A DNA stretch of 43,993 nt from Sulfurovum sp. GTDB lineage: Bacteria; Campylobacterota; Campylobacteria; Campylobacterales; Sulfurovaceae. The position numbers and the translations under genes are program-made. The notes below the pieces were generated by a model. That model worked only from the letters and a program-made list of their open reading frames with translations, was not told the DNA's origin and did no database searches. This document shows positions 3,292-30,148 of this stretch, in pieces. Location: the NCBI GenBank assembly GCA_027062365.1, contig JAMOTK010000028.1, positions 1 to 43,993 on the forward strand. The letters are read 5' to 3'. Each line of letters begins with the position of its first letter. The stretch's first letter is position 1.

Positions 3292-3348
3292 CTTTATTAA
3301 GACTTTTACAAATGTTTGTAAAAAATGAAACTCCAGAAAGTAGTTGTT

Positions 3349-3687
3349 ATGGAAATTTTTTTAATCTATACTGTGGGTGTCGTATTGGCAGTTTTTTTAC
3401 TTTATTTTATTGGTATTCTTATGGCTCCTTATGCACCTGATCCTATCAAAAATGATCATTTTGAATGTGGATTACCTACGAGTAGTTCTGTACCTAAAAA
3501 AGCTAATTTTAGTTTTTTTGTGTATGCAATTATGTTTATTATCGTAGATATGACAGGTTTGTTTTTTACACTTTTTGTGTATGCTGATGCAAAACACGCT
3601 TCTTTGATTGGGGCGTTGTTTGCTGTGATTATGGCTATTGCCATTACTATTGCTATGAAGGAGCATCGATATGCTGAAAATTCTTGA
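3349..3687 (+). CDS. nuoA: Complex I subunit A (NuoA)
   Basis: This is a small membrane subunit of the complex I proton-pumping arm. At 112 aa from the ATG at 3349 it has three transmembrane segments and the family motif YAPDPIKNDHFECGLPT, which holds the conserved loop Cys near the quinone cavity. An ATG at 3325 would add eight residues, but neither start has a strong ribosome binding site, and MEIFLIYTVG fits the family start better. The end overlaps nuoB by 17 bases, so translation is probably coupled. It is the first gene of a ten-gene operon in the order A-B-CD-H-I-J-K-L-M-N. Confidence 0.9.
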   Translation: MEIFLIYTVGVVLAVFLLYFIGILMAPYAPDPIKNDHFECGLPTSSSVPKKANFSFFVYAIMFIIVDMTGLFFTLFVYADAKHASLIGALFAVIMAIAITIAMKEHRYAENS

Positions 3688-4144
3688 TTTTTTTAATTAT
3701 GCCCAAAGTGAAAGCCTTTGGATGGCACATTTTTGTACAGGGTGTTGCTCGTTAGAAATGGCAGCAGCTATGGGACCACGTTATGATTGGGAAAGATATG
3801 GTTATCTGCCTACGCCTACCCCTAGACAAGCTGATGTTTTGATGATTACAGGGTTGGTAAGTAAAAAGATTTTACCTGCACTTTTGCGTACCTATGCCCA
3901 AATGCCAGAACCTAAGTATGTTGTAGCGTTGGGTGCATGTTCTTTTGATGGAGGGCCGTATAATGATTCGCTTTCTGTTATCAAAAATCCTACAGAGATT
4001 TTACCTGCTGATGTCTTTATCGCAGGGTGTCCTCCCAAGCCTGAAGCGATTATCGAAGGATTAGAGCAGATTAAACAAAAGATTAAAAACAAGATACCTA
4101 GTGCTGCTAGTCAAGGTGGACTTTGGAAAGAGATGGACTTTTAA
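3671..4144 (+). CDS. nuoB: Complex I subunit B (NuoB), N2 cluster subunit
   Basis: This 157-aa Fe-S subunit should carry the terminal N2 [4Fe-4S] cluster that passes electrons toward the acceptor site. The tandem Cys25-Cys26 pair is in HFCTGCCSLEM, and the remaining ligands are in VALGACSFDGG and IAGCPPKPEA. PTPRQADVLMITG is the typical NuoB strand. Two deviations stand out: an additional Cys22 giving CTGCC, where most NuoB proteins have an FGLACC-like sequence, and SVIKNPTEILP in place of the usual segment with GVDxIVPVD. These changes parallel those in the NuoD half of the next gene. The start lies inside nuoA and the stop overlaps the nuoCD start (TAATG). Confidence 0.9.
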   Translation: MLKILDFFNYAQSESLWMAHFCTGCCSLEMAAAMGPRYDWERYGYLPTPTPRQADVLMITGLVSKKILPALLRTYAQMPEPKYVVALGACSFDGGPYNDSLSVIKNPTEILPADVFIAGCPPKPEAIIEGLEQIKQKIKNKIPSAASQGGLWKEMDF

Positions 4145-5787
4145 TGCAAAAAATCAAAGATATTTTAAAAGAGTTTTCTACCGAATATATAGAAGACTAT
4201 AAAAAGATATGGATTAAGAGTAAACTCACGACTTCTGATAGCCTATTGTCTGTAGCCAAAGCACTCAAAGAGGAGGGGCTTCGCTCTTTGAGTACTGTAT
4301 CGCCTACAGATTTTCCTGATACTGATACTATTGAGATGAACTACTTTTTTGAAGATTTGCAAACCAAGCGTAATTTATGGCTCAAATGTGATATTCCAAG
4401 AGAGATTGAGAAGTGTGAGATAGCATCTTTGACTCCGTTGTTTGCTTCTGCTAATTGGCATGAGCGTGAAGCTTTTTCTATGTTTGGTGTTAGGTTTCTC
4501 AATCATCCTGATTTGCGTCCTATTATTGCGTCTGAAGACTTTAAAGGCAAAGCACCTTTTAGAAGAGACTTTGATTGGGATGCACACGAAAAAGATACAA
4601 TGATTCACATGAAAATGATTGTGGATGCTTTTAAAGAAGAACAAGAAAACAACGAGATTAATCTTGATGCAGATAGTTCAGAAATGGTACTTAATTGGGG
4701 TCCTACCCATCCTGCTAGTGGGCCTATACGTCTTCGTATTCATACCGATGGAGAAGAGATTATTAGTGTAGACCCTGATATAGGCTATGTATGGCGTGCG
4801 TTAGAGCATTTGGTAACCAAAAAAGATTTTATTGGGGCGATTGTCGCAGTAGAACGCTTGTGCTTTATGGACAATATCAATTCTATGGTAGGCTATAGTA
4901 TGGCAGTAGAAGAGATAGCAGGGACAGAGATTACCCCTTTTGCTAAGTGGATGCGAGTGCTTTTAGGTGAGGTGGCTAGAGTCTCTTCTCATGTGATGGG
5001 ACTAGGTGGATTTTTTAATAATCTAGGACTACATACGCTTTTTATGTGGAATATGGATATGCGTGAATTTTTTCTTGATTTTCTCGAATCTTATAGTGGT
5101 GCACGTATCGCTACAGCAGCGATAGAGCCAGGTGGTGTGCGTTATGGTTTAGATATGACAATGTTTGATGAGCTTCAAAAAGCCATCGAAAAGTTTGATG
5201 AGGGGATTGATGAAGTTTATACGATTTTTGTACAAAATCCTACGATGAAAATGCGTGCTAAACAGGTAGGACAATTGAGTGCTGATGACATCGAAGACTT
5301 TGGTTTGAGTGGTATCGTTGCACGAGGAAGTGGTGTGAAAACAGATATTCGTATGGATGAGCCTTATGCAGCGTATGATGAGGTGGATATGGAGTATATT
5401 ACACAAAAAGATGGTACTTCTTATGACCGTTTTGTGATGCTATTTGAAGAGCTTAAACAGTCTGTCAATATCATTAGACAAGCCAAAAAACATATCGAAG
5501 ACGGTGTGGCATCGGGTGCGTTTAATCCGACCAAAGACCACATGGTAAAAGTACCCAAGAAGCTTCCAAAAGGGGAAGCTATTTCACGTGTAGAATGGGC
5601 TAGGGGAGAAGTATTGATGCATCTTGTTACACAAGAGAAATCAAGCAAACCCTATAGGCTCAAATTAAGAGCCCCTAGTTTCAATCATACGATGATGCTC
5701 GACCATCTGCTTAAAGATAAAACATTATCAGATGTACCTCTTGTTTTTGGTAGTTTATATATCTGCCAAGGCGATTTAGATAGATAA
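4144..5787 (+). CDS. nuoCD: Fused complex I subunit C/D (NuoCD-like), altered quinone site
   Basis: This 547-aa protein is a NuoC-NuoD fusion forming the connecting arm. The ATG at 4144 overlaps the nuoB stop (TAATG); in-frame ATGs at 4123 and 4132 lie inside nuoB. The NuoC part (about 1-160) has HEREAFSMFGVRFLNHPDLRP. The NuoD part begins near LNWGPTHP (183-190). Compared with mammalian NDUFS2, the quinone-site His59 is deleted (GPTHPAS-GPIR), Tyr108 is Phe241, and Asp160 is Asn293. Two Cys residues, 240 (ERLCFMD) and 541 (SLYICQGD), stand where the first Cys of each [NiFe]-hydrogenase CxxC motif would lie, with Asp where the second Cys would be. The fold is clearly NuoD, but the electron acceptor is therefore uncertain. 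Confidence 0.88.
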   Translation: MQKIKDILKEFSTEYIEDYKKIWIKSKLTTSDSLLSVAKALKEEGLRSLSTVSPTDFPDTDTIEMNYFFEDLQTKRNLWLKCDIPREIEKCEIASLTPLFASANWHEREAFSMFGVRFLNHPDLRPIIASEDFKGKAPFRRDFDWDAHEKDTMIHMKMIVDAFKEEQENNEINLDADSSEMVLNWGPTHPASGPIRLRIHTDGEEIISVDPDIGYVWRALEHLVTKKDFIGAIVAVERLCFMDNINSMVGYSMAVEEIAGTEITPFAKWMRVLLGEVARVSSHVMGLGGFFNNLGLHTLFMWNMDMREFFLDFLESYSGARIATAAIEPGGVRYGLDMTMFDELQKAIEKFDEGIDEVYTIFVQNPTMKMRAKQVGQLSADDIEDFGLSGIVARGSGVKTDIRMDEPYAAYDEVDMEYITQKDGTSYDRFVMLFEELKQSVNIIRQAKKHIEDGVASGAFNPTKDHMVKVPKKLPKGEAISRVEWARGEVLMHLVTQEKSSKPYRLKLRAPSFNHTMMLDHLLKDKTLSDVPLVFGSLYICQGDLDR

Positions 5788-5796
5788 GGAATTAAC

Positions 5797-6750
5797 ATGG
5801 ATACCCTCATTCAAGCTTTTGTGTTTCCTGGGCTTTTGTATATATTACTTTGGACAGTTGGACTTTTTTGGTTTTTTCGTAAATTTATGGCAAAACTACA
5901 TAAACGTGTAGGCCCTCATTACAATGGACCAGCAGGAACATACCAAACACTTTTTGATTTTAGTAAATTATTGACAAAAGAGAGCATTACCCCTCATGGT
6001 GTCAATCCTTATCTTTTTTCGATGATGCCACTTTTGGCACTGATTACGGCGATGCTTCCTGCTGCTTTTATCCCATGGACAGAAGACTACCCTGTGGTGG
6101 TTACTTCTTATGGGCTTTTGGCATTGGTCGTGTTGATAGGGATTGAGCCTTTTTTACTTTTTTTGACAGGGTTTGGTTCAGAAAATAAATACTCTTTTTT
6201 AGGAGGTATTCGTGTCTTAGCACAATCTATCTCTATGGAAACAGCATTTTTATTATCGGCTCTCTCTCCTGCTCTTTTGTTTGGTACGATGAACTTGACA
6301 GAGATTGTAGAACAAAGTACATGGCTAAGTTTTTTGATTTTGTTTCCAGGTTTTGTGGTCTATTTTATCGCGTTATTGGGACTATTGGAACAACCCCCTT
6401 TCAATATCCCTGATGCCGAACAAGAGATAGTGTATGGGTTCTATACCGAGTACAGTGGTACAAATTATTTTTTATTAAAGATGGCAGCCTTTGCAGAATT
6501 TATGGCAGTCTTTGGTACGGCTACGACACTCTTTTTGGGTGGGCATTATGGGATATTTTTTGATGGATATATATTTTTCTTTGTCAAGATGCTGATGGTT
6601 GCTATCGTGATGATGACCATTCGAGCAGCCACACCACGTATTACACTAAAACAAATGTTAAGCTTTTCATGGCGTTACCTTGTGCCTATTAGTCTGCTCA
6701 ATGTGGCATGGGTCATGGTAGCAAAAGTATTTTTCTTTGGGAGTATATAA
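5797..6750 (+). CDS. nuoH: Complex I subunit H (NuoH)
   Basis: NuoH links the connecting arm to the proton-pumping membrane arm and forms part of the quinone channel. The 317-aa product has about eight transmembrane segments and the family signatures KRVGPHYNGPAGTYQTLFDF near residue 40, an acidic cytoplasmic loop with LLGLLEQPPFNIPDAEQE near 200, and FYTEYSG just after. The usual ERxPFDLPEAE motif is here EQPPFNIPDAE, so an Arg that most family members have is Gln. The gene starts nine bases after nuoCD and abuts nuoI (stop 6748-6750, next ATG 6751). Confidence 0.92.
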   Translation: MDTLIQAFVFPGLLYILLWTVGLFWFFRKFMAKLHKRVGPHYNGPAGTYQTLFDFSKLLTKESITPHGVNPYLFSMMPLLALITAMLPAAFIPWTEDYPVVVTSYGLLALVVLIGIEPFLLFLTGFGSENKYSFLGGIRVLAQSISMETAFLLSALSPALLFGTMNLTEIVEQSTWLSFLILFPGFVVYFIALLGLLEQPPFNIPDAEQEIVYGFYTEYSGTNYFLLKMAAFAEFMAVFGTATTLFLGGHYGIFFDGYIFFFVKMLMVAIVMMTIRAATPRITLKQMLSFSWRYLVPISLLNVAWVMVAKVFFFGSI

Positions 6751-7308
6751 ATGATGATAATAGATATGATTAAAAAGGTCATACGGGTATTTAGGGTTGT
6801 ATGGATTAAAAGTCCTGCCCAAGTAGATGTCCGTTATACCCCTATGCACCATCCTGCTAGATATAGAGGTCAGCATACCATAGATTATGAAAGTTGTATA
6901 GGCTGTGATGCCTGTAATAAGATATGTCCTGTCCATGCTATCACGATGAAAGAATTACCTCTAAAAAAACAAAATATCGTACCAGAAGTCAATCTCTCTG
7001 TGTGTATATTTTGTGGTTTATGTGAAGATGTTTGTCCTACCAAGCCTAGCAAATCAATACTTCTAAGTGGAGGGAGATATGATATGCTAAGTGGGGGATG
7101 GCATGAAGACCAAGAGGATTTTTGGGTCAATGTGGATATACCTCAAAGCTATATAGAAAGTCGCTTAGAAGAGGAAGAAGCCACACGTGTCAAAAAAGAG
7201 TTGGCAGCGAAAAAGAGAAAAGCAATAGCCAAAGCCAAAGCAATGGGTACAGATGTATCCAAACCAACCTTTGATGGTACACCAGACTTTTCAGGAGGAG
7301 CTAAATGA
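6751..7308 (+). CDS. nuoI: Complex I subunit I (NuoI), 2x[4Fe-4S] ferredoxin subunit
   Basis: This 185-aa connecting-arm subunit carries two [4Fe-4S] clusters (N6a and N6b). The two binding motifs are CIGCDACNKICP near residues 50-61 and CIFCGLCEDVCP near 88-99. Because no nuoE, nuoF or nuoG is present in the operon, this subunit is the most likely entry point for electrons, for example from ferredoxin or flavodoxin; that is an inference. The C-terminal tail of about 45 residues is highly charged (EEEEATRVKKELAAKKRKAI) and longer than in many homologues, so it could be a docking segment. Its TGA overlaps the nuoJ ATG (ATGA). Confidence 0.92.
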   Translation: MMIIDMIKKVIRVFRVVWIKSPAQVDVRYTPMHHPARYRGQHTIDYESCIGCDACNKICPVHAITMKELPLKKQNIVPEVNLSVCIFCGLCEDVCPTKPSKSILLSGGRYDMLSGGWHEDQEDFWVNVDIPQSYIESRLEEEEATRVKKELAAKKRKAIAKAKAMGTDVSKPTFDGTPDFSGGAK

Positions 7309-7778
7309 ATATCTTACTTTTAACAATTATATTACTCTTAGCAGTCGCATCTTTGATGATTAAAAAAACTGTTCCTGCGATGATAAGTTTTGCTTTGATG
7401 ATGTTGCTTTTAGGGCTTTATTATATGAGTATAGATGCCAAACTACTAGGACTTTTTCAGATATTTATCTATGCAGGAGGTATCGTAGTACTGTTGCTTT
7501 TTGGTATTACTATCATTGGTATAGAGTTTCCCAAAGCCAAAACACGCCCATTGGCAGTGGTCAATGCTTTGCTTGTTTTTGTGATATTAAGCACGATATT
7601 TTTTAGAGGAGTAGACAGTCTCTCCAAAGTGATAGATAAACCCACAGAAGATATTCATCTTTTTGCACATAGTTTTAGTGATATGGTCATTCTCTTTGCT
7701 TTGATAGGTACAAGTCTTTTGTATGGTACGATAAAGATGACCGATGCACTTCGCTCAAAAAGGAGAAAAGATGTTTGA
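7305..7778 (+). CDS. nuoJ: Complex I subunit J (NuoJ)
   Basis: This 157-aa integral membrane subunit of the pumping arm has five transmembrane segments. The conserved third-helix region is visible as FIYAGGIVVLLLFGITIIG, which contains the pi-bulge helix that rotates during turnover in characterised complex I. It overlaps nuoI by four bases and nuoK by eight bases, consistent with tight translational coupling. Confidence 0.9.
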   Translation: MNILLLTIILLLAVASLMIKKTVPAMISFALMMLLLGLYYMSIDAKLLGLFQIFIYAGGIVVLLLFGITIIGIEFPKAKTRPLAVVNALLVFVILSTIFFRGVDSLSKVIDKPTEDIHLFAHSFSDMVILFALIGTSLLYGTIKMTDALRSKRRKDV

Positions 7779-8067
7779 AATTGAAATGTTATTTGCCTTT
7801 GCTTTGTTTGGGGTAGGTTTATATGGTGTGACTTCGGGTAGAGATTTTTTACGGATTCTTTTTTCGCTAGAAATGTTACTCAATGCTGTCATTATGATGT
7901 TGGCAATCACGGCACATTATCTAGGCATGACACAAAATATCACGATGGCATACATGGTCATCGTATTAGCCACGTTAGAAGCAGGGGTAGGGATACTCAT
8001 CTTTGCGTTAGCTCATAAAGTCAGTAAGATGGTGATTCCAGATGACTATACACAGGAGGTCATATAA
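7771..8067 (+). CDS. nuoK: Complex I subunit K (NuoK)
   Basis: This 98-aa subunit has three transmembrane helices and the two conserved membrane glutamates of the proton path, in SLEMLLNAV and LATLEAGVGI. The start at 7771 is preferred over an upstream in-frame ATG at 7744 because AAGGAG lies at ideal spacing before it, within the nuoJ 3' end. The stop overlaps the nuoL start (TAATG). Confidence 0.9.
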   Translation: MFEIEMLFAFALFGVGLYGVTSGRDFLRILFSLEMLLNAVIMMLAITAHYLGMTQNITMAYMVIVLATLEAGVGILIFALAHKVSKMVIPDDYTQEVI

Positions 8068-9911
8068 TGGTAGCGTCTTTACTTCTTTTACCACTTTTGG
8101 GTGCTATATTGGCATATCTTTTAGGCTTACAAAACAAAAAACTGGCTTTTTGGGTGGCAGAAATTACAGGAATCTTACTTTTTATGATTTCACTTATCTT
8201 AATGATAAATTACACTGAACCCATTGATATACCTATGACATGGTTTGAATTTGGTGCTATCTCTATCCCCTTTGGTATTTATATCGACCAACTCTCTTTA
8301 GTAATGTTGCTCATCGCTACAGGATTGGGGTTTTTGGATATTCATTTTGCCCATGATTATATGTCTGATGACCCACATCAACCACGTTATTATGCCAAGG
8401 TTCTTTTCTTTATAGGAGGGATGATATTACTGGTCTCTGCTAAAGATATGATTTCTCTTTTTGTAGGATGGGAATTTATGGGATTGGCTAGTTATCTGCT
8501 TATCTCTTTTTGGCATGAACAAAAAGCACCTGCTGATGCAGGTGTTTCAGCATTTTTATTTACTAGATTTGGGGATATTTTTCTTTTTGCTGCGATTGGA
8601 TTGCTCTTTTACTTTTCTGGTACACTTGATCTCATGCAAATCAATGCCATGGCAAACAGTGGTACGCTTGATAAGGATACTATGTTTCTCATTGCTATCT
8701 TTATCTTTATCGCTGCCATTGGTAAATCAGGGCAATTCCCACTCTTTCCTTGGTTAATGCGTGCAATGGAAGGGCCTACGACTGTCTCGGCATTGATACA
8801 TGGTGCAACTATGGTAAACTCTGGTATCTATATCGTAGCACGTCTTTTTGATTTTTATACCGTAGCAGGGGCATTGATAGTGGTAGCTTCCATTGGTGCG
8901 ATAAGTGCTTTTATAGGAGCAACAAGTGCCTTGGTACAGTCTGAACTCAAAAAGGTATTGGCATACTCAACTATGTCACATCTCTCTATTGCTTTTGTAG
9001 GATTGGGAGCAGGGTCACTCGTAGCAGGAATGACACACCTTGTCAATCATGCTGTGTTTAAAGCATTGCTGTTTTTGGGTGCAGGAGCTGTCATAATGTC
9101 GGTACATCATGTCAAAGATATGTGGCGTTTGGGTGGATTGAGCAAAAAGATGTTATGGATTTCTATTTTTATGGGGATGGCAGTACTTTCTTTGAGTGGT
9201 ATCCCTCCTTTTAGTGGTTTTTATTCTAAAGATGCCGTCATTGCTTCTGCAATAATAAATCCTGATACAACAGGGTTGATTGCTATCTTAGTGACCATTG
9301 CAGGATTACTTTCTATGGCATATATCGGCAGACTTTGGGTACTTACCTTTAGGGGAGAACCTAGAGATAAATCACTGTTTACACAGGTCAAAACACCCTC
9401 TACATTTTGGATTGTATTGCCTTTAGCCATCATGGCAGGAGTTACTCTCTTATTGGGCTTTGTTCAAACACCATTGGCTCAAATGCTAAGTGGGGAAACA
9501 AGCGTGAAAATGCATCATGTCGATGGCTTGGTTCTAGGTTTGATATTTGCTATGAGTATTTTGGCATTGCTTGTCTATTATTTTTATATAAGACGGCTTG
9601 ACCTTACAGCAAAGGTGAGCAAACACCCTTTGATGAAAGCCATACATTCTGTACTTTTTAATGGCTATTATGTAGAATATCTTATCTATTGGTTTATAGA
9701 GCATGTCATTATTCAAAGTATCGCAAAGACGATGCATTGGATAGACCAACACTTGATAGACGCAAGTATCAATGGCGTAGTGACACTTGCTAAAAAAGTG
9801 TCTAAAGTATTTGGATATACCTATAGTCAAAAAGTAGGAGACAATGCAAGTGCTATGGCTATTGGACTCTTCTTCTTACTCGTGGCTATGCTTTTAGGAG
9901 GTATCGTATGA
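8067..9911 (+). CDS. nuoL: Complex I subunit L (NuoL), antiporter-like
   Basis: The 614-aa product is the distal antiporter-like proton-pumping subunit. It shows the Glu-containing helix FVGWEFMGLASYLL, the Lys helix AIGKSGQFPLFPWLMRAMEGPTTVSALIHGATMV, and a long C-terminal extension that should form the lateral helix along the membrane arm (ending in YTYSQKVGDNASAMAIGLFF). Length and motif order are normal for NuoL. Pumping residues appear intact, so the complex is expected to conserve energy whatever its redox partners. It overlaps nuoM by four bases. Confidence 0.93.
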   Translation: MVASLLLLPLLGAILAYLLGLQNKKLAFWVAEITGILLFMISLILMINYTEPIDIPMTWFEFGAISIPFGIYIDQLSLVMLLIATGLGFLDIHFAHDYMSDDPHQPRYYAKVLFFIGGMILLVSAKDMISLFVGWEFMGLASYLLISFWHEQKAPADAGVSAFLFTRFGDIFLFAAIGLLFYFSGTLDLMQINAMANSGTLDKDTMFLIAIFIFIAAIGKSGQFPLFPWLMRAMEGPTTVSALIHGATMVNSGIYIVARLFDFYTVAGALIVVASIGAISAFIGATSALVQSELKKVLAYSTMSHLSIAFVGLGAGSLVAGMTHLVNHAVFKALLFLGAGAVIMSVHHVKDMWRLGGLSKKMLWISIFMGMAVLSLSGIPPFSGFYSKDAVIASAIINPDTTGLIAILVTIAGLLSMAYIGRLWVLTFRGEPRDKSLFTQVKTPSTFWIVLPLAIMAGVTLLLGFVQTPLAQMLSGETSVKMHHVDGLVLGLIFAMSILALLVYYFYIRRLDLTAKVSKHPLMKAIHSVLFNGYYVEYLIYWFIEHVIIQSIAKTMHWIDQHLIDASINGVVTLAKKVSKVFGYTYSQKVGDNASAMAIGLFFLLVAMLLGGIV

Positions 9912-11347
9912 ATCCCGTGTTAATGATTGTTGCACCCATTGTATTATCAGGAGTCCTAGCACTCTTCTTAAAAAAAGATACCCCAATTATCAAATATATA
10001 GCCTTAGGCTTTTTTAGCTTTATGCTTCTGTTTTCTATCAAGCTTCTCTCCTCTTTACCCAAGGTGGGCTATCTTGACTTAGCTAAGATGCTCACAGTAG
10101 AAAAGTGGGATTTTGTACTCTCCTTACAAGTAGACCATTTGTCTGTGATTATGCTTATCTTAACGTCTGTACTGTTGATACTCGTAACCCTTTCAAGTTG
10201 GACAATGAAAGGTTCTGTAGGGTATTTTTCTCTTTTAATCTTTTTTGCTGGCCCTATCTCTGGGGTCTTTATGAGTACCAATTTCCTTTGGTTCTTTATC
10301 TTTTGGGAATTGACACTTGTACCGATGTTTTTTCTTGTGGGTATATGGGGAGCTGAGGGGCGTATCTATGCGTCTATAAAGTTTTTCCTCTATACACATG
10401 TGGCATCTATGTTTATATTATTGGCATTTTTTCTTATCTACAAAGAGACAGGTACATTTGATATGACGTTAGTCAAAGAATCCATGTTGGCTTCACCTGT
10501 ACTGATATGGTGGTTACTTTTTATCGGTTTTGCTGTGAAGATGCCTATCTTTCCTTTTCATACATGGTTGCCTGATGCCCACGTACAAGCACCAGCACCT
10601 ATCTCTGTACTATTGGCAGGGGTACTACTCAAAATGGGTGCATACGCGATGATTCGTATGGTTGTCTTACTCCTACCACAACAGACAGAAGCCTTTTCAT
10701 GGGTCATACTCACTTTAGGGCTTATTACACTCTTTTATGCAGGGTTCATGGCACTGTATGAAACACATCTCAAAAAGATGGTAGCCTATAGTTCTATCTC
10801 TCACATGGGATTGGTAACGGTGGCTATTGGTACGGCGAGTTACGCAGGATTGAGTGCAGGAGTCTATGAAATGATAGGTCATGCCCTCATCATCTCTCCA
10901 CTTTTTTTGATTGCAGGATTTTTACATCAGCGTACAGGAAGTTGGTATATTAAAGATATGGGAGGTTTGATGCAAAAAGCACCCTATCTTTCTACTATTT
11001 TTGTCTTGGCAGGTTTGGCAGCATTGGGCTTACCTGCTACGATGGGATTTGTCGCAGAGCTAAGTATCCTCATCGCTTCGATAGAACGTTTTGGTATGGG
11101 CATGATACTCATTGCCTTAGGTTCTATGATTGGGGCAGGGTACATAATATGGACATTTAGACGTGTCATTTATGCCGAGCAGTCTACGTTGATAGAAAAA
11201 AGCGATTTTAAGATGCATCGCATTGAGTTTTTGGCACTCCTACTCTTTGCTTTGGGTATAGTGGTCTTTGGTCTTTTCCCATCGCTTTTATTTGATACGA
11301 TTAATACAGCCTTTGTGGCATTATCTACAGCAGGAGGTATCGGATGA
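9908..11347 (+). CDS. nuoM: Complex I subunit M (NuoM), antiporter-like
   Basis: This 479-aa antiporter-like subunit has about 14 transmembrane segments. The conserved Glu is in FIFWELTLVPMFFLVGIWG, and the Lys/His helices appear as FAVKMPIFPFHTWLPDAHVQAP and LLAGVLLKMGAYAMIR. These match ordinary NuoM closely, unlike the divergent NuoB/NuoD pair. It overlaps nuoL upstream and nuoN downstream by four bases each (ATGA). Confidence 0.93.
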   Translation: MNPVLMIVAPIVLSGVLALFLKKDTPIIKYIALGFFSFMLLFSIKLLSSLPKVGYLDLAKMLTVEKWDFVLSLQVDHLSVIMLILTSVLLILVTLSSWTMKGSVGYFSLLIFFAGPISGVFMSTNFLWFFIFWELTLVPMFFLVGIWGAEGRIYASIKFFLYTHVASMFILLAFFLIYKETGTFDMTLVKESMLASPVLIWWLLFIGFAVKMPIFPFHTWLPDAHVQAPAPISVLLAGVLLKMGAYAMIRMVVLLLPQQTEAFSWVILTLGLITLFYAGFMALYETHLKKMVAYSSISHMGLVTVAIGTASYAGLSAGVYEMIGHALIISPLFLIAGFLHQRTGSWYIKDMGGLMQKAPYLSTIFVLAGLAALGLPATMGFVAELSILIASIERFGMGMILIALGSMIGAGYIIWTFRRVIYAEQSTLIEKSDFKMHRIEFLALLLFALGIVVFGLFPSLLFDTINTAFVALSTAGGIG

Positions 11348-12681
11348 TAAGTGCTTTTTCTATTTTATTTGCTTCGGCATTGCTTAGTTTATTGTTCCAT
11401 AGAACGATTTGGTTAAAACCTTTTACACTCATAGCGTTAGTCATAGGTATGTGTCTTAGTGGCACAGCGATTGGGATAAGTGGGTTTGAAACATCTCAAG
11501 CCACAAGCCTTTTTGAGTTTATCTTACAGTGGGTACTTTTTGCTCTAGTTTTGCATGATAAAAATGAGACAAGCATCACACAAATACTCTTTATCGGGGC
11601 AGCTTCTATTGCTCTACTTCAAAGTAGTACCCTCATAAGCTTTGTCATCTCTTTTGAAGCTTTAAGTATTATCTCTATGGTTTTGGTGAGTCAGATTAGA
11701 ACGCCAGACCAAGCAGAGGGGGCTATCAAAATGTTTATCGCAGGGGCTATCTCTACAGGGATACTTTTGTTAGGTACAGCATTTTATCTCATGGGTGGTG
11801 GCATGTTAGATAAAGCCATAGATATTCATGCTGATGGTTTTGCTTCGATGGGTATCGTTATCATGTTGTTTGGTGTTTTTTATAAGCTTACGATAGTACC
11901 GATGCACGGTTGGGCTATGGATACTTATACTTTGATACGTCACTCTCATGCAGGACTGTTGACAGGGGTAGCCAAAACGGTGGTAGCCGTGGCTACTTTC
12001 AAGATATTTTCAGGATTCTTAGCCGTACAGATAGAGATGGGTATTTTGTTACTAGCATTTCTTTCTGTGCTTACGATGACGTTGGGTAACTTCTTGGCAC
12101 TCTTTCAAACACAAATATCTCGTATTCTTGCCTACTCTTCTATCGCACACGCAGGGTATATCCTACTTGCTTTTGTAGGGGTCAAAAGTAGCTATGCTTC
12201 TACAGGATTACTCTATATGGCGATTGCATATATCTTTATGCAAACGGCAGTTTTTTTATTGTTAGATACGTTGGCACACAGATACAATATCAAATCCCTA
12301 GATGACCTCAATGGATTGGGTAAAGCCAATAGGGTTTTGGCATTTTTCTTTACGGTGCAACTTTTCTCTTTGGCAGGGATACCCCTCTTAGCAGGATTTT
12401 TAGCCAAAGCAGTGGTCTTTTATGCCGTGGTAGATGCTGGGTTATGGTATATCGTATTGATTGCCTTACTCAATTCTGCTCTTTCTGTAGGGTATTATGC
12501 GTGGATAATTAAACATATCTATTTTGATAAACCTAGCACTCTATTTGCACAAGAGCAAACAGATAAACATAAAACAGGTAAATATGCAAATGAAAAGCTT
12601 AGTATACTATCTCAGAGCATGTTACTTCTAGGTACAGTGTTCTTTGGTATCTTTGCTTCGCTTGTCTTTTCTGTTATTTAA
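11344..12681 (+). CDS. nuoN: Complex I subunit N (NuoN), antiporter-like
   Basis: This 445-aa antiporter-like subunit lies next to NuoK in the membrane arm. Family features are SFVISFEALSIISMVLVSQI, the helix FGVFYKLTIVPMHGWAMDTYTLI with its Lys, and ILAYSSIAHAGYILLAFVG. It is somewhat shorter than E. coli NuoN, mainly at the N-terminus, as in other Campylobacterota. It is the last complex I gene of the operon; no nuoE, nuoF or nuoG follows. Confidence 0.9.
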   Translation: MISAFSILFASALLSLLFHRTIWLKPFTLIALVIGMCLSGTAIGISGFETSQATSLFEFILQWVLFALVLHDKNETSITQILFIGAASIALLQSSTLISFVISFEALSIISMVLVSQIRTPDQAEGAIKMFIAGAISTGILLLGTAFYLMGGGMLDKAIDIHADGFASMGIVIMLFGVFYKLTIVPMHGWAMDTYTLIRHSHAGLLTGVAKTVVAVATFKIFSGFLAVQIEMGILLLAFLSVLTMTLGNFLALFQTQISRILAYSSIAHAGYILLAFVGVKSSYASTGLLYMAIAYIFMQTAVFLLLDTLAHRYNIKSLDDLNGLGKANRVLAFFFTVQLFSLAGIPLLAGFLAKAVVFYAVVDAGLWYIVLIALLNSALSVGYYAWIIKHIYFDKPSTLFAQEQTDKHKTGKYANEKLSILSQSMLLLGTVFFGIFASLVFSVI

Positions 12682-12695
12682 GTCAAAGGAACAGT

Positions 12696-13505
12696 ATGCA
12701 AATAGTCACAGAAGCTTTGCTTGATTTGGGTGTAGATAGTGATAAAGAAATCAATAAATCTCAATTGCTTTTACTTGATATGAAGGCAGAGCAGACAGAG
12801 CATTGGAGAGAGGAAGCCTTGGGCAAATCGCTCTCCGATGCACGTGTAGAGCTTTTTGTTTTGCTCAATGGTATGGATGACGTGAGCTTACAAGAGAAAG
12901 TCATTGCCAACTATAAAGCCTTACAAAAATTTAGAAAAAAACCACAACCAAAAGCAAAACCAAAACCTATTATAGCACCTTCAATCCATGCTAAAGTCAC
13001 TCTTTATTGTGATGGTGGATGTACGCCAAATCCTGGTAAAGCAGGTTCTGGTGTGGCACTCTATCGAGATGAGTGTTTAGAATCGCTTTGGTATGGACTC
13101 TATGAGCCAATGGGTACGAACAATACAGCAGAATTGGGCGCATTGTATCAGTCTTTGCTTCTTGCCCAAGAAGAAATCCAACAGGGCAATAGTGTTGAGA
13201 TTAAATGTGATTCGATGTATTCTATCAATTGTATCAAAACATGGGCTATCTCATGGGAGAAAAAGGGATGGACAAAAAAGGGTGGAGAGATTAAAAATCT
13301 GGACATTATCAAACAAGCTTACGCTCTATATACCCGTATCAAAAAAGAGGTAAATCTCTCTCATATCAAAGCACATGCAGGATTTGAAGGCAATGAATTG
13401 GCAGACAGGATGACGATGTATGCTATTGCACAACAGTCTAAGGCATTTGTATGTTATGACAAAGAGATAGATGTTTTGACTATTTTGGCTATGAGAGCAG
13501 GATAG
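12696..13505 (+). CDS. rnhA: RNase H-type protein with N-terminal extension
   Basis: This 269-aa protein has a C-terminal RNase HI domain (about 99-260) that cleaves the RNA strand of RNA:DNA hybrids. The catalytic carboxylates are visible as Asp106 (LYCDGGCTPNPG), Glu146 (NTAELGAL), Asp172 (KCDSMYSI) and Asp237 (GNELADRM), with His227 in AHAGFEGN. The first 95 residues are an extra helical domain ending in a Lys/Pro linker (KKPQPKAKPK); it resembles no domain I can name. The gene follows nuoN by 14 bases and may be co-transcribed as a passenger. A second, shorter RNase HI elsewhere in the genome is possible, so the gene symbol is tentative. Confidence 0.82.
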   Translation: MQIVTEALLDLGVDSDKEINKSQLLLLDMKAEQTEHWREEALGKSLSDARVELFVLLNGMDDVSLQEKVIANYKALQKFRKKPQPKAKPKPIIAPSIHAKVTLYCDGGCTPNPGKAGSGVALYRDECLESLWYGLYEPMGTNNTAELGALYQSLLLAQEEIQQGNSVEIKCDSMYSINCIKTWAISWEKKGWTKKGGEIKNLDIIKQAYALYTRIKKEVNLSHIKAHAGFEGNELADRMTMYAIAQQSKAFVCYDKEIDVLTILAMRAG

Positions 13506-13576
13506 CGTCATCAGTATTTTGGTATATTTTGGTCATAATGTCACTTCACACTAAATAATCATAAAAGGCAATAGTA

Positions 13577-14959
13577 ATGTTAGAGAGTATTCATAATATA
13601 GACGTAAAAGCAGAGATAGCAAAACTAAAGAATCTAAATTGTGCAGAGGATGATGTATTTTTTCAAGCGATGGAAGAGGTACTTTTGTCTATTTTACCAC
13701 TTTTTGAATCAGATGAATTTTATACAAAAATGAAGAGTCATTCTATTTTAAAACGATTGGTTACACCAGATAGAATTATTAAGTTTAAAGTCACATGGTT
13801 TGATGACAATCAAAATGTACAAGTCAATATGGGCTATAGAGTACAGTTTAATAATTCACTCGGACCCTACAAAGGTGGGCTACGTTTTCATCCAACTGTA
13901 AATGAAGGGATTTTAAAATTTTTAGGATTTGAACAAATTTTAAAAAATGCACTGACTGGTTTGCCTATTGGTGGAGGGAAGGGAGGTAGTAACTTTGACC
14001 CTAGAGGTAAAAGTGATTTTGAAATTATGAAATTTTGTACAGCTTTCATGAAAGAACTCTCTAAGTATATCGGTCCACGTATTGATGTCCCTGCTGGTGA
14101 TATTGGGGTAGGTGGACGTGAGATTGGGTATCTTTTTTCAGAGTATAAAAAGATGACTTCTTCTTTTGAGGGTGTATTGACGGGTAAACCCTCTTTCTTT
14201 GGAGGTTCTGTGATGAGACCAGAGGCTACAGGCTATGGGGTCATTTACTTTACACGTAGAATGCTAGAACTCGAAGGGAAAGAATCATTAGAAGGCAAGA
14301 TTTGTACCGTGAGTGGAGCAGGTAATGTAGCACTTCATGCCATCGAAAAATTACAACAGCTTGGTGCTATCCCTGTGACGTGTAGTGATTCAAGAGGTAC
14401 AATCTATGATGCAAGAGGGGTGGATTTACCTCTATTAAAAGAATTAAAACTTCAAAAACGTGTCTCTTTAGAAGTCTATAAAGAAGAACATCCTGAAGCA
14501 GAGTATATCCCTGTATCACAGTATCCTAAAGAGGGACATGCTGTATGGACTATTCCTTGTTACGCAGCCTTCCCTTGTGCTACACAAAATGAGCTTACAC
14601 TCTTAGATGCCAATACGCTGATTGACAATGGCTGTCACAGTGTCAGTGAAGGGGCAAATATGCCTTCTACAGCAGAGGCTGTACATACCATGCTTAAAAG
14701 TGATATGTGTCTAGCCCCTGCCAAAGCAGCCAACGCAGGAGGTGTGGCTACAAGCTCTTTTGAGATGAGCCAAAATGCTTCTATGTCCAAATGGACACGT
14801 GATGAAGTGGATGCCAAATTAGAAGCTGTGATGATAGACATTTGTGAAAATGTTTCAGCCACAGCCAAAGAGTATGGTGTAGAGGGTAATTATGTAGATG
14901 GTGCAAATATTGCAGGATTTAAAAGAGTCTCAGAAGCAATGATGGCTGAGACAATATAA
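13577..14959 (+). CDS. gdhA: Glutamate dehydrogenase, GdhA type (likely NADP-specific)
   Basis: This 460-aa enzyme catalyses the reductive amination of 2-oxoglutarate to glutamate and so assimilates ammonium in the cytoplasm. The length and sequence fit the hexameric bacterial GdhA class (about 450 aa). Substrate-binding and catalytic stretches are PYKGGLRFHPTVNEGILKFL, LPIGGGKGGSNFDPRGKS with the catalytic lysines, and DVPAGDIGVGGREIGY. The Rossmann domain begins near ICTVSGAGNVA. NADP preference is inferred from class membership. It has its own upstream gap of 71 bases and a strong downstream hairpin, so it is probably monocistronic. Confidence 0.92.
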   Translation: MLESIHNIDVKAEIAKLKNLNCAEDDVFFQAMEEVLLSILPLFESDEFYTKMKSHSILKRLVTPDRIIKFKVTWFDDNQNVQVNMGYRVQFNNSLGPYKGGLRFHPTVNEGILKFLGFEQILKNALTGLPIGGGKGGSNFDPRGKSDFEIMKFCTAFMKELSKYIGPRIDVPAGDIGVGGREIGYLFSEYKKMTSSFEGVLTGKPSFFGGSVMRPEATGYGVIYFTRRMLELEGKESLEGKICTVSGAGNVALHAIEKLQQLGAIPVTCSDSRGTIYDARGVDLPLLKELKLQKRVSLEVYKEEHPEAEYIPVSQYPKEGHAVWTIPCYAAFPCATQNELTLLDANTLIDNGCHSVSEGANMPSTAEAVHTMLKSDMCLAPAKAANAGGVATSSFEMSQNASMSKWTRDEVDAKLEAVMIDICENVSATAKEYGVEGNYVDGANIAGFKRVSEAMMAETI

Positions 14960-23184: not shown

Positions 23185-23468
23185 AACGCTACTCCATATT
23201 TGAGGGCTTCTCTCTCAATCAGCCTATTTTTATCTTTAGATATTACTATATCTATCTTCTGTTCTCCTATGTACTCTTGTAATTTCGTTAAAAATTGTAT
23301 TTTTTGCTTGTATTGAAGAGGATTTTTGTCGCTAACGATGTACAAATCTATATCTCCACCCTTTTGTGTATCATCAACACGGCTTCCAAATAGATAAATT
23401 TTGCCATTATCGAATATCTCTTTAAAAGCTTTTTTTATCATCTTTATTTCATAATTAGTTAATCTCAT
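23181..23468 (-). CDS. mntA: MntA-like minimal nucleotidyltransferase antitoxin (first pair)
   Basis: This 95-aa minimal nucleotidyltransferase has the core GSRVDDTQKGGDIDLY, with Gly28-Ser29 and the metal-binding Asp39 and Asp41; a third acidic residue is in KIDIVIS (Asp73). In characterised type VII systems this protein transfers AMP to the Tyr of HepT and neutralises it. It overlaps the WYL gene upstream by three bases and hepT downstream by four bases. The protein is shorter than Shewanella MntA (about 139 aa) but contains the full catalytic core. Confidence 0.85.
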   Translation of the reverse strand: MRLTNYEIKMIKKAFKEIFDNGKIYLFGSRVDDTQKGGDIDLYIVSDKNPLQYKQKIQFLTKLQEYIGEQKIDIVISKDKNRLIEREALKYGVAL

Positions 23469-24412
23469 ATAGAATTATCCTTATGATTATTTAGACCACT
23501 TTGTAACTTCACTTTATACGCTTCTCTAAGCTCTTTTGGTTCTAAGATAATGAGGTCTGGTAGCCATTTTTGGATAAAGGGGAGTATCTCTAAATCTTGG
23601 GTATATTGTACCTCAAATATGATTGAGCCGTCTGCTAACTCCTCTTTAAACTTTTGAGTTGAAAGAAACTTTTTCATGTCCTCTTTGAAGTATTTGGCTA
23701 TGAGAGGCGTGGCTTTGATGGTGGCTGTCTTTTTTTCTATGCCGTAGAGGGTCATGGCGTTTTGTAAATCATTGCTTAAAAATTCTTTATGCTTCTTTAC
23801 TGATGAGGGTTGAAAGTGTTCACTTTTAGAGCCATAATATACTTTATTTATGAAGCTTACTCTGCCAAATTTAAGGTAATCATCACAGTCAACATAGGCA
23901 ATGTACCAGTTATTATCTACAAATACCAATTTAATTGGTTTGAGATTGTCATACTCTTTGTCATCATAAAAAAATGTTATTTTGGTATATTCTCTAGCTT
24001 CTATATTTCTTTTTAGTCTTCTAAACTTTTGGCTTGACTCTATGGTGTTTGTATCTTCAAAAGGGTTGTTTTGAAACAAATATATATCTTTGTCTTTTTG
24101 TGTAAGCTCCTTTAGTTCTGCAAATAGTTCAGGGTCTCCATCGTGAGCCATATTAAAAAACCAACCTATCTCATCAGAGTTATTGAATGACTCTTTGAAA
24201 ATGTCTAAAGGTTTTATGAGTCTATATGTATTTTTTCGTCCTTTCTTTTCTAAAACAATATTATCAAACTCTCTCTCAAACTCTTTGAGTATAAGACTTA
24301 AGTTTTTAACAGACATATTATCTAAAAGCTTTTGCAATTTCTCATCATAACTATCTAGTACTTTTCTAGTATGAAACTCTTCTAAGATTATTTTATATTT
24401 ATTTAATGACAT
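23465..24412 (-). CDS. WYL-domain transcriptional regulator
   Basis: This protein of about 315 aa has an N-terminal DNA-binding region (LNKYKIILEEFHTRKVLDSY, then a predicted winged helix) and a central WYL domain visible at IKLVFVDNNWYIAYVDCDDY, followed by the usual C-terminal extension (LPFIQKWLPDLIILEPKELR). WYL regulators are common in defence islands and CRISPR loci and are thought to sense nucleic-acid or nucleotide ligands. The start at 24412 is preferred over an upstream ATG at 24442 because AAAGGAG sits just before it, inside the fic 3' end. The fic stop overlaps the start, and MNT follows with a three-base overlap. It is a likely regulator of this operon. Confidence 0.85.
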   Translation of the reverse strand: MSLNKYKIILEEFHTRKVLDSYDEKLQKLLDNMSVKNLSLILKEFEREFDNIVLEKKGRKNTYRLIKPLDIFKESFNNSDEIGWFFNMAHDGDPELFAELKELTQKDKDIYLFQNNPFEDTNTIESSQKFRRLKRNIEAREYTKITFFYDDKEYDNLKPIKLVFVDNNWYIAYVDCDDYLKFGRVSFINKVYYGSKSEHFQPSSVKKHKEFLSNDLQNAMTLYGIEKKTATIKATPLIAKYFKEDMKKFLSTQKFKEELADGSIIFEVQYTQDLEILPFIQKWLPDLIILEPKELREAYKVKLQSGLNNHKDNSI

Positions 24413-25547
24413 CTTTTTCTCCTTTATGTAAAACCACCTCATACCTCACGCTTCGTCCTGAACTTCCTTCTACTTGTTTGATGCACCCAAGGAGGAGTAG
24501 GTTTTTAATATCCCTAGAGGCTGTAGCTGATGAGGTTTGTGCCATTTTTATGTACCTTTTTGTGGAGAGTGTCTCTATCTCTTTATCTAAAAGTGCATTG
24601 AGGGCTTTGGTTTGTCTTTTGTTGATGGCACTCTCTTTGTGATTGTCCCAAAATATAGCTTTTTGGACGACATACTCTATGGACTCTATGGCTTCTGTTA
24701 GGGCATTGTGTAGTGTCGTTAAAAACCACTCACACCAGTAGCCAATGTCTAAAGGGCTATCTTTATAGATGTATCCTGTCGTATGCTCCAAGGCTTTGTA
24801 ATAGCCTTTTTTAGAGCTATGTATGCTCTTTGACATGGAGTATAGTCTCGTGGTTTGTGACTCTTCTAGTTCAGCAAGTACCATATCGCTGATGATCCTA
24901 GTCAACCTACCGTTACCATCATCAAATGGGTGTATGATGACAAACCACAAATGGGCTATAGTCACCTTCATAAGAGAGGGTGGCGTAGTGTTGAACCACG
25001 CTAAGAACAGTTGCATCTCTTTGGTGAGTTGCGTAGGAGGAGGGGCTTCATAGAAGACTTTTTGTTTCCCTACTACACCTGATACTATCTGCATAGTGCC
25101 ACTGTTTCTAAATCTACCTACCTCTATCTGCCATAGTTTACTCGTATGGTTTTCAAACATTTTATGATGCCATCTATAAAGTCTTTCTAGGCTTAATCCA
25201 TCGGCATAGTTACTCTGTGCATCGAGTAATATATCTACAAAATTACTCTCTTTGGTCTCTTTTTTGTAGCTATAGGATACCTCTATTTCTAGCCTCTCTT
25301 TGATAGAAGATTTTACACTAGCTCTATCTAAAATCTCACCCTCAATAGCAGAGCTAGAGAGTATCTCCGATTCAAGAGCATTGAGTTGGCTTAGTTTTAG
25401 AGCTTTGTTACTTATGATGCTACTTAAAATTTTGAGTTCACCTTGTTTTCTCGATATTGACTCTATGAGCCTTTCTAGCTTTTTGCTATCATATACAAAG
25501 TGAGGATACTCTTTATGTTGCCAAATCCATCTAGTTGCCTCTTTCAC
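24399..25547 (-). CDS. fic: Fic-family AMP-transferase with DUF4172 N-terminus
   Basis: This 382-aa protein carries the Fic motif HPFDDGNGRLTR beginning at His206, the catalytic core for transferring AMP (or similar) to target side chains. The N-terminal domain (WIWQHKEYPHFVYDS) is DUF4172, and the inhibitory helix motif SSAIEG (Ser65, Glu69) matches class II Fic, which is autoinhibited in cis. A C-terminal winged-helix segment (residues about 320-375) could bind DNA. The start is GTG at 25547 behind AAAAAGGGTG. Two palindromes lie directly upstream. It heads the coupled fic-WYL-MNT-hepT-csx1 run. The cellular target is unknown. Confidence 0.9.
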   Translation of the reverse strand: MKEATRWIWQHKEYPHFVYDSKKLERLIESISRKQGELKILSSIISNKALKLSQLNALESEILSSSAIEGEILDRASVKSSIKERLEIEVSYSYKKETKESNFVDILLDAQSNYADGLSLERLYRWHHKMFENHTSKLWQIEVGRFRNSGTMQIVSGVVGKQKVFYEAPPPTQLTKEMQLFLAWFNTTPPSLMKVTIAHLWFVIIHPFDDGNGRLTRIISDMVLAELEESQTTRLYSMSKSIHSSKKGYYKALEHTTGYIYKDSPLDIGYWCEWFLTTLHNALTEAIESIEYVVQKAIFWDNHKESAINKRQTKALNALLDKEIETLSTKRYIKMAQTSSATASRDIKNLLLLGCIKQVEGSSGRSVRYEVVLHKGEKDVIK

Positions 25548-27447: not shown

Positions 27448-28548
27448 CTACTTACTTATCTCACACAAAATCCACCCAAAAGGCAACTCAGATTTATCTT
27501 TTTTCTCTTCTGCCCTAAATAAAGATTTTGTTTTAGGATTAAACTCTTCAGGCTTACTAACCATAAACTTTTGACCACAATATCTACCTACTCTTAAAAT
27601 AAATTGCTTATCATTTTTTATTTCTCTACTAAAATTTGTAAAGCCTTGATTATCTGCTTTTTGATAATGTTCATTGATTTTTTTTCTTATATCTTCAAAA
27701 GATAAACTATTTATTTTTGTTAAATAAAATTCTAATGTTGAACCCTTTGATATTACTTCTAATTTTTGTGGGATAGTACCTTTTGAAGTTTTTCTTACAG
27801 ACCATACAATCTGATTTTTTACATTTAAAGGAATGGCATCTGAAATTTTAAACTTTTGACTCTCTTTCACGGATAAATTTAGAACTGTTTGCAATGCACC
27901 TTTAAATGAGCTTCCTGCTATGTATGGTACTATTTTATTATCTTTACTATTTGTTGATATATGCTCATTGATTAACATTTGGTTGATTGACTCATCATTG
28001 TTATTGCTTAGCCCAAAATCTTTTTTATAGAGTCTTACTATATCTTTGGCTACTGGAATTTTTTTATTATAAAGTCTATTGTCAATAATGAAATCAGCTT
28101 CTGCTCTAAAAAAAGCTACAAGTGTATTTAAGTTAGAGAGTTGATGTTCTGTTGGTAGCTTTTTATCTCTTTCATATAGTTGTTCAACAACAAGATGCTC
28201 GTTAAAAGCATATAAAAAATTATCTCTAATTACATAATTAGTAGGTTCATACTCATAACCACTTCCTATATGTATAGGAGAGAGGGTTGTGATTTTTATT
28301 TTAAAGGTTTTTAAATCACTCTCTTCTAGTCTCTTCCTCTGTCTCTCAGCCTCCTCTTGTTTCTCTTTTTCTCTTTGAACTCTATCTTCCTCTGTTCTTT
28401 TTAATTCTTTTTCCTTTTGTATTCTTTCTTCTTCCTCTTTTCTTTTTTTAGTAGCTTCTATTTTATGATTTTTGTTAGATTGTGTTTTTGCAAAAGCATT
28501 AAATAAATTTGCATTATTTTTTTTATTATTACTCTTTTTTTTAGCCAT
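27448..28548 (-). CDS. csm5: Csm5, RAMP subunit of the type III-A complex
   Basis: Csm5 caps the head of the Csm backbone and recruits crRNA-maturing nucleases. The RAMP core begins near residue 85 with FKIKITTLSPIHIGSGYEYE and has the Gly-rich loop PYIAGSSFKGALQTVL; FILRVGRYCGQKFMVSKP is the C-terminal motif. The first 85 residues are an unusual extension: an Asn/Lys start, then a long Glu/Lys/Arg coiled-coil region that most Csm5 proteins lack. It overlaps csm4 by eight bases. Codons are strongly A+T-biased like the rest of the csm genes. Confidence 0.87.
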   Translation of the reverse strand: MAKKKSNNKKNNANLFNAFAKTQSNKNHKIEATKKRKEEEERIQKEKELKRTEEDRVQREKEKQEEAERQRKRLEESDLKTFKIKITTLSPIHIGSGYEYEPTNYVIRDNFLYAFNEHLVVEQLYERDKKLPTEHQLSNLNTLVAFFRAEADFIIDNRLYNKKIPVAKDIVRLYKKDFGLSNNNDESINQMLINEHISTNSKDNKIVPYIAGSSFKGALQTVLNLSVKESQKFKISDAIPLNVKNQIVWSVRKTSKGTIPQKLEVISKGSTLEFYLTKINSLSFEDIRKKINEHYQKADNQGFTNFSREIKNDKQFILRVGRYCGQKFMVSKPEEFNPKTKSLFRAEEKKDKSELPFGWILCEISK

Positions 28549-29416
28549 TATCTAGTCCTTTATCATCAAATATAAATGGTACTACAATAGAATAACCTTG
28601 TATAAATGATTTACTATTGATACCATTATCTATACTTCTTCCAATATACTCTTGATTCTTTTCTAGCTTAACTACAGCCCCACTATCTGCCATAAGAAGA
28701 GGTTTTTTAAATGGTGTTTGTCTACTATGAGACTTACCAAAACGGTTAAAGGTGTTATAGTAGGCTTTCTTAATATTTGGCTGTTTGTTTAAGATAGTCG
28801 GAGACAGAGTTAAATAGTAATCACTTTCTACCTCATCAAATCCTTTAAAACTATCATCAACTTCTGCTTTAAAATGACCTTTCCCAATGCTCCCTTTTTT
28901 ACCAAATCCAACTTTACCAATAAGATTTAATTGTTCCAATATTTCTGATTTTTCAAAATATTCTTCATCAAACAAAACATAAATAATAGGCTGTTCTAAA
29001 AAGCTTATCTCTTCTATAGAGTAAGGTGCAAAAACTCCACTATCATCAGTACTAAAAGTAACTCTATTAATACTATTTCTAATTTTTATGTCTGTTTTAA
29101 AAAAGCCCAACTCTTTTGCCTCTAATAACTCTCCATCCTGCAAATTTTCAATACTTATCCAAGCTTTTTTTCTAAACTCTTTCTTCTGACTCTCATCAAC
29201 ACCAAAAGCACTTAAAGGTAAAGTAGGTTTATAGAGATGCCCATTAGGTAATATATCAGAAAAAATAATCTTTGGCTTCTCGTTAAGATAGTTTTCAAAA
29301 ATCTCTTCTCTATTTAAAAATGAGTGATAGACAAAATGCCCAAAAATAGTATCACCTTTAGGGAAAGTTACAAATGATGAATGTGGGGTTATTTTAACCT
29401 TTATTAATTTCATCAT
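28541..29416 (-). CDS. csm4: Csm4, RAMP subunit holding the crRNA 5' end
   Basis: Csm4 binds the crRNA 5' handle and docks Cas10. The 291-aa product shows the N-terminal LIKVKITPHSSFVTFPKGDT followed by IFGHFVYHS and a Gly-rich loop GKVGFGKKGSIGKGHFKAEV, typical of Csm4. Adjacent ATGs at 29416 and 29413, and a TTG at 29419, are all possible starts, since the ribosome binding site is weak and the gene begins inside csm3 (overlap 23 bases). It ends inside csm5. Confidence 0.87.
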   Translation of the reverse strand: MMKLIKVKITPHSSFVTFPKGDTIFGHFVYHSFLNREEIFENYLNEKPKIIFSDILPNGHLYKPTLPLSAFGVDESQKKEFRKKAWISIENLQDGELLEAKELGFFKTDIKIRNSINRVTFSTDDSGVFAPYSIEEISFLEQPIIYVLFDEEYFEKSEILEQLNLIGKVGFGKKGSIGKGHFKAEVDDSFKGFDEVESDYYLTLSPTILNKQPNIKKAYYNTFNRFGKSHSRQTPFKKPLLMADSGAVVKLEKNQEYIGRSIDNGINSKSFIQGYSIVVPFIFDDKGLDNG

Positions 29417-30137: not shown

Positions 30138-30148
30138 CTCATCTCCTC

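Follow-up and report, generated by a model that had tools for sequence, protein, structure and literature searches.

Among the relatives of respiratory complex I, the number of pumping subunits rises with the potential of the acceptor, from one in MBH to two in MBS and three in complex I itself. The quinone-site Tyr of complex I is described as strictly conserved and as binding quinone, His and Tyr act as proton donors in current models, and in canonical models the acidic residues of ND1 receive charge from the quinone-site His and the Asp paired with it (PMC8119997). According to those parts of Yu 2020 (PMC7684303) on which we draw throughout, MBS reduces sulfane sulfur rather than quinone; the His and Tyr of the quinone site are missing from it, while its large subunit retains the C85/C385 pair. 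These two Cys are dispensable for dimethyltrisulfide reduction, and catalysis depends on a proximal cluster that has three Cys ligands. The same parts of that paper state that complex I has lost all four [NiFe] Cys, and describe the tandem-Cys motif of cluster N2 as complex I-type, not MBS- or hydrogenase-type.

We analysed a stretch of 43,993 nucleotides from Sulfurovum sp. (assembly GCA_027062365.1, contig JAMOTK010000028.1, positions 1 to 43,993 of the forward strand), hereafter the window. At 3325-12681 (+) it carries a complete, tightly packed nuoA-B-CD-H-I-J-K-L-M-N operon of the 11-subunit complex I type, in which neighbouring genes overlap or lie no more than 9 bases apart. Its features are:

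3325-3687 (+): nuoA (ND3-like); HFECG loop kept, Thr77 (3553-3555) at the equivalent of Glu81 (E. coli numbering).
3671-4144 (+): nuoB; four cluster-N2 Cys (C25, C26, C90, C120) and an extra conserved C22 in FCTGCC.
4144-5787 (+): nuoCD fusion, 547 aa, carrying the altered quinone-site residues.
4699-4722 (+): GPTHPAS-G, residues 186-193; His59/His38 of the quinone site deleted.
4861-4872 (+): C240-F241-M242-D243; Phe241 in place of Tyr108, Cys240 and Asp243 at the L1 CxxC positions of [NiFe] hydrogenases.
5020-5022 (+): Asn293, at the Asp160 position; mostly Asn, Thr or Ala in the family.
5764-5775 (+): C541-Q-G-D544; Cys541 at the first L2 CxxC position, Asp544 at the second.
5797-6750 (+): nuoH (ND1-like); PFNIPDAEQE loop, Asn203 at the Asp213 equivalent, equivalents of Glu157, Glu218 and Glu220 kept.
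6751-7308 (+): nuoI; two 4Fe-4S motifs.
7305-7778 (+): nuoJ; orthologues present in relatives.
7744-8067 (+): nuoK; Glu36 and Glu72 kept in 31/31.
8067-9911 (+): nuoL; Glu144, Lys229, Lys342 and Lys399 kept in 29/29.
9908-11347 (+): nuoM; Glu144, Lys234, Lys265 and Glu407 kept in 26/26.
11344-12681 (+): nuoN; Glu133, Lys158, Lys217, Lys247 and Lys395 kept in 25/25.

NuoCD matches Pfam Complex1_30kDa and Complex1_49kDa, and NCBIfam scores it as NuoD-like at 333 bits, below the equivalog cut-off of 360. A preliminary description of this DNA had placed NuoCD correctly at 4144-5787 (+) and had rightly found NuoL, M, N and K to look normal, but it missed the absence of nuoE, nuoF and nuoG from the operon. 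These three genes are lacking from the operons of relatives too, and the same nuoABCDHIJKLMN order is found in all relative contigs of sufficient length. Further along the window, on the - strand, a Fic-domain protein adjoins a WCX-domain regulator-like protein (23465-25547), and type III CRISPR-Cas genes, including Cas10 with a Csm1 domain and a RAMP protein, occupy 27448-32321.

NuoCD was aligned to NDUFS2, Thermus Nqo4, E. coli NuoCD and HycE, using phmmer against the PDB and MAFFT on several sets. The window reads GPTHPAS-GPIRL where the references have GPQHPAAHGVLRL, so that the second His of GPQHPxxHG (NDUFS2 His59) is deleted; Tyr108 of the reference motif DRLDY is Phe241 in ERLCF; and Asp160, in AL-D-IGA, is Asn293 in FN-N-LGL. 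No shifted His or Tyr was seen nearby in NuoD in these alignments, and the three changes proposed in the preliminary description proved real, also against Campylobacterota NuoD. As phmmer and MAFFT agree across sets, an alignment artefact was rejected, as was chance or sequencing error, since 41 distinct sequences share the trait. Both the His59 deletion and Phe241 are found in 41/41 non-identical family members, which makes the loss of the quinone residues a family trait and not an accident. At the third position the Asp is indeed lost, but the Asn of the window is not conserved (Asn in 16, Thr in 14 and Ala in 9 of 41). The full His, Tyr and Asp set is present in all 44 canonical NuoD compared and in none of the 41 family members. 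All three residues are retained by canonical Campylobacterota NuoD, also where the canonical complex shares a genome with the family, and adaptation to menaquinone was therefore rejected as an explanation. Two NuoD from plasmid records, one haloarchaeal (L125) and one actinobacterial (L126), have Trp at the quinone Tyr position, and the latter additionally has Glu at the Asp position; the set is therefore not strictly invariant elsewhere.

The 41 distinct relatives, which are 56-81% identical, come from Sulfurovum, Sulfurimonas and, probably, Nautiliaceae. An all-genome scan with one genome per species gave 32 close relatives, all from Sulfurovum, Sulfurimonas or other Campylobacterota; it used exact 8-residue patterns, detects close relatives only, and returned none of the copies at 56-61% identity. 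The remaining genome searches were confined to Campylobacterota, with a phylum set of 397 genomes, and here further copies at 56-61% identity were found in one family of small genomes (f4). We infer that f4 represents Nautiliaceae, because reverse gyrase scored above the cut-off in 9/9 of its genomes (one copy apparently broken) and because the operon content matches that of Nautilia profundicola, where all nuo genes are annotated except nuoE, F, G and K (PMC2628731). When the nine f4 genomes were searched for canonical NuoD, no complex I-type NuoD was found beyond that of this family, the other matches being weaker and of hydrogenase large subunit length; the family is therefore the only complex I found in these Nautiliaceae-like genomes. 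Nautiliaceae are vent bacteria, and the carriers include deep-sea and sulfur-spring bacteria. Carriers in f1 and f7 have both NuoD types, and in the host of the window another contig carries a second NuoD, which reads GPQHPSAHG, DRLDY and ALDVGA and belongs to a canonical cluster. That cluster (L003:6187-20000) has no recognisable NuoE or NuoF; between its nuoD and nuoH stand a flavoprotein-like ORF of 669 aa and two NuoG-like ORFs, of 758 and 826 aa. MBS-like complexes are also seen in Sulfurovaceae-type genomes (L093, L094, L096-L102; L095 is a canonical NuoD). Their large subunit, with RICVPEPD/CPPE, is closest to solved MbsL at about 300-340 bits, and their small subunit, where read, has a single Cys at the proximal-cluster loop (GTGCGAIE), in contrast to the family.

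The preliminary description read the three losses correctly but missed two hydrogenase/MBS-type Cys and two Asp in the same pocket. Cys240 and Asp243 are invariant in 41/41 non-identical members, Cys541 and Asp544 in the 37/37 sequences with an intact C-terminus, and together they align with the two [NiFe]-binding CxxC motifs of HycE and MbhL. The four Cys of the hydrogenase motifs are absent, CxxD and CxxD standing in place of the two CxxC; with the second Cys of each motif being Asp, no hydrogenase-like [NiFe] site is possible, and a [NiFe] hydrogenase was rejected. The large subunit of MBS (PDB 6u8y) reads RICVPEPD and NCPPDIDR at the same places. Cys240 aligns with MbsL C85 and Cys541 with C385, the computed numbering agreeing with that published, and family NuoD thus has the MBS large-subunit features of no His38/Tyr87 and Cys at the C85/C385 positions. 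With four invariant, metal-capable ligand positions, the Cys240/Asp243/Cys541/Asp544 group might bind a metal at the old [NiFe] position, as a terminal redox or structural site acting with a small non-quinone substrate. We consider this improbable: ordinary complex I often has Asp or Glu at the fourth position, the parts of PMC7684303 drawn on here report no metal at the matching MBS site, which has a similar residue set, and the loops concerned are weak in the AlphaFold model of NuoCD (pLDDT <50 at 241-245 and 545-547). The fold of that model is nearest to complex I and MbsL (VIA Z about 29).

NuoB has all four N2 Cys in 35/35 family members. Within its FCTGCC motif, FCTGC is in register with MbsJ C25/C28, C22 matching MbsJ C25, and CC is the complex I tandem; with four Cys at N2 and not three, membership of MBS was rejected. 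One relative (L012:9481-10010) has an in-frame stop codon in an otherwise intact nuoB, which is either an error or a pseudogene. NuoA, NuoJ, NuoK and three antiporter-like subunits are present, and the pump Lys and Glu residues tested in NuoK, L, M and N are invariant; Arg175 of NuoL varies, to Lys only, and two further NuoM positions checked are variable. Because the four N2 Cys and the pump Lys/Glu are retained, the family complex, judged by its sequences, is neither MBS nor hydrogenase. The junction between pocket and pump is changed: the NuoH Asp213 equivalent is Asn in 33/39 family members, the NuoA Glu81 equivalent is Thr, Ala or Ser in 37/37 (both in E. coli numbering), and the NuoH Glu36 position is a gap in the family alignment. 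With the charge route from His/Asp to the ND1 acids altered, the coupling route would have to be built differently in this family.

The intact N2 and pump residues would also fit an ordinary ferredoxin:menaquinone complex I whose quinone residues have drifted because it runs mainly backwards or slowly, new chemistry not being involved. The coexisting canonical complex of Sulfurovum-type genomes could have relaxed the demand on a second copy, yet 9/9 Nautiliaceae-like genomes have no other complex I, and most of the replacements are invariant over a deep divergence, which is not the mark of drift. We judge this explanation quite unlikely.

To place the family, trees were built with MBS and a sample of canonical NuoD, without FpoD. 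The family is monophyletic (100/100), on a long stem. In the tree of NuoD alone it lies outside MBS and Nuo (98/90), and it stays there when the trait columns are removed (98/91) and with broader Nuo sampling (90/75), although forcing it together with Nuo is not rejected for NuoD alone (AU p 0.11 and 0.26). The NuoB tree joins MBS and Nuo without the family (80/75), the NuoH tree places the family with Nuo (99/98), and the concatenated NuoB+D+H tree makes it the sister of Nuo (93/89). A grouping with MbsL is absent from the best trees, and forcing it gives AU p 0.11 for NuoD alone and 0.09 for the concatenation. As long branches are in play, we limit the claim to this: on these trees the family is a deep lineage that lies outside the canonical NuoD sampled. 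The preliminary description called the quinone-site residues altered. They do differ from the canonical ones, but the word may be wrong, since a family branching outside the sampled canonical NuoD may never have had them. On the sister-of-Nuo tree the simplest account is that the two Cys were retained from a hydrogenase-like ancestor and that the quinone residues were gained later in Nuo; the family may instead have lost them secondarily.

The genomic partners suggest a source of electrons. In two relatives (L012, L029), a pyruvate:ferredoxin oxidoreductase gene (PFOR; TIGR02176, 1810 bits, above cut-off) and a dihydroorotate dehydrogenase-like gene lie between nuoJ and nuoK on the same strand. 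This insertion suggests that ferredoxin is the electron partner of the complex; the linkage is seen in these 2 loci only, and the presence of nifJ genome-wide does not track the family. A CoA-disulfide-reductase-like flavoprotein of 454-457 aa adjoins the operon in 6 loci, upstream in 4 and downstream in 2. Its gene is rare, occurring in 15/397 phylum genomes; 5/5 non-Nautiliaceae carriers have it, compared with 10/383 of the others (Fisher p 4e-8 when f4 is left out and 6e-5 when it is counted, values that assume independence of genomes and so overstate the association). A fumarate reductase set lies 3' of the operon in one relative (L030). NADP-type glutamate dehydrogenase genes are found 3' of nuoN in the window (12696-14959), where an N-terminally extended RNase H gene comes between, and immediately 5' of nuoA in another locus (L028:5692-7068). 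Beyond these, the neighbours are apparently unrelated. In the Nautiliaceae-like loci (L113-L121), an AAA+ ATPase gene of about 570 aa is upstream of the operon in 9/9 and a TPR/DUF7494 gene of about 750 aa is downstream in 8/9, both on the operon strand.

The flavoprotein bears on whether the family could be a sulfane reductase of complex I architecture that works like MBS, with polysulfide or an organic trisulfide receiving the electrons of ferredoxin, via N2, in what was once the quinone cavity. Its nearest solved structures are CoA disulfide reductases, and the active-site Cys is kept in 20/20. MBS likewise lacks the His and Tyr and has the same two Cys with acidic residues three positions on, FCTGC of NuoB is in register with MbsJ, and several hosts are named Sulfurovum or Sulfurimonas. 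However, MBS catalysis depends on a three-Cys proximal cluster where the family has four N2 Cys, and the MBS large-subunit Cys are dispensable for dimethyltrisulfide reduction (PMC7684303, in the parts drawn on here); family NuoH also groups with complex I. Moreover, nifJ is close to the flavoprotein gene in three genomes; one of these has a family operon elsewhere, unlinked, and in the other two no such operon was detected. This speaks for pyruvate/CoA metabolism no less than for sulfur, so the protein may serve CoA instead. A sulfane reductase is in our estimate unlikely, and we retain it because the pocket is shared with MBS.

We tentatively favour, at somewhat under even probability, a deep-branching 11-subunit ferredoxin-type complex I with menaquinone in a non-canonical pose as its most likely acceptor. 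Low-potential ferredoxin, loaded by pyruvate:ferredoxin oxidoreductase, would exchange electrons at NuoI, and these would pass through the two NuoI clusters to cluster N2 of NuoB and on to an acceptor lying in the cavity formed by NuoB, NuoD and NuoH, while the membrane arm would pump with its three normal antiporter-like subunits. Flow might instead run in reverse, with ferredoxin reduced for CO2 fixation. Menaquinone would be held differently, without the His/Tyr/Asp set, and protons would come from other groups, for which the invariant Cys240/Asp243/Cys541/Asp544 group is the obvious candidate. We prefer this reading because N2 and the pump are complex I-type and because pump number rises with acceptor potential: three pumping subunits, compared with the single one of MBH and the pair in MBS, would better match the greater redox drop that menaquinone offers. 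Also in its favour are the operon content without nuoEFG, the NuoH and NuoB+D+H trees, the PFOR insertion, the flavoprotein association and the lack of another complex I in Nautiliaceae-like genomes. Against it count the absence of all three quinone residues, the changes in the acidic relay (NuoH Asp213, NuoA Glu81), the restriction of PFOR linkage to 2 loci with nifJ not tracking the family, and the precedent of MBS, which lacks His and Tyr and is described in those parts of PMC7684303 as no quinone reductase. It is possible, if doubtful, that this is a surviving lineage with the full modern pump that never had a quinone headgroup site, its cavity still keeping two of the four hydrogenase Cys along with two Asp, and that it delivers electrons to an acceptor other than quinone, either a bound metal centre or sulfane sulfur. 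The lineage would then be intermediate between MBH/MBS and complex I. The preliminary description had proposed a different acceptor or a differently bound quinone. This proposal is supported in part: since every member of a deep family shares the change, there is good support for an acceptor site of different build, while sequence alone does not decide between acceptors.

Overall, the family would represent a second kind of complex I beside the canonical one, and the only kind in Nautiliaceae-like genomes, with the whole pump kept and the quinone residues absent. We found no earlier description of this quinone-pocket variant in the open-access PMC literature. Mechanistic models of quinone-driven pumping centre on the His/Tyr/Asp set, so a natural family with the pump and none of the three residues offers a ready test of whether coupling needs them. 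It would also qualify the published statement that complex I has lost all four [NiFe] Cys, and give a concrete target for electron exchange between ferredoxin and the membrane in Nautiliaceae, where no other complex I was found.

Set beside respiratory complex I, the family is alike in its homologues of NuoA-D and NuoH-N, its NuoCD fused as in E. coli, its tandem-Cys N2, its three antiporter-like subunits with conserved Lys/Glu and its NuoK glutamates. It differs in having no NuoE/F/G, in lacking the equivalents of His59, Tyr108 and Asp160, in its changed NuoH Asp213 and NuoA Glu81, and in keeping two Cys where the parts of PMC7684303 drawn on here state the loss of all four. With the 11-subunit complex I-like enzymes of Desulfitobacterium (PMC11238625; compared by description) and of a Prevotella plasmid (L127) it shares gene content and, probably, ferredoxin input, but the Prevotella copy keeps GPQHPSTHG, DRMNY and AQDLGA and the family does not. 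Like MBS (PDB 6u8y), it has no His38/Tyr87, has Cys at C85/C385 followed by acidic residues, and has a NuoB FCTGC resembling that of MbsJ; unlike MBS, it has a four-Cys N2, NuoA/J/K, three pump subunits and a complex I-type NuoH, and its large subunit is not grouped with MBS in the best trees. In comparison with the group 4 [NiFe] hydrogenases (HycE, MbhL), the first Cys of each CxxC is kept and the second is Asp.
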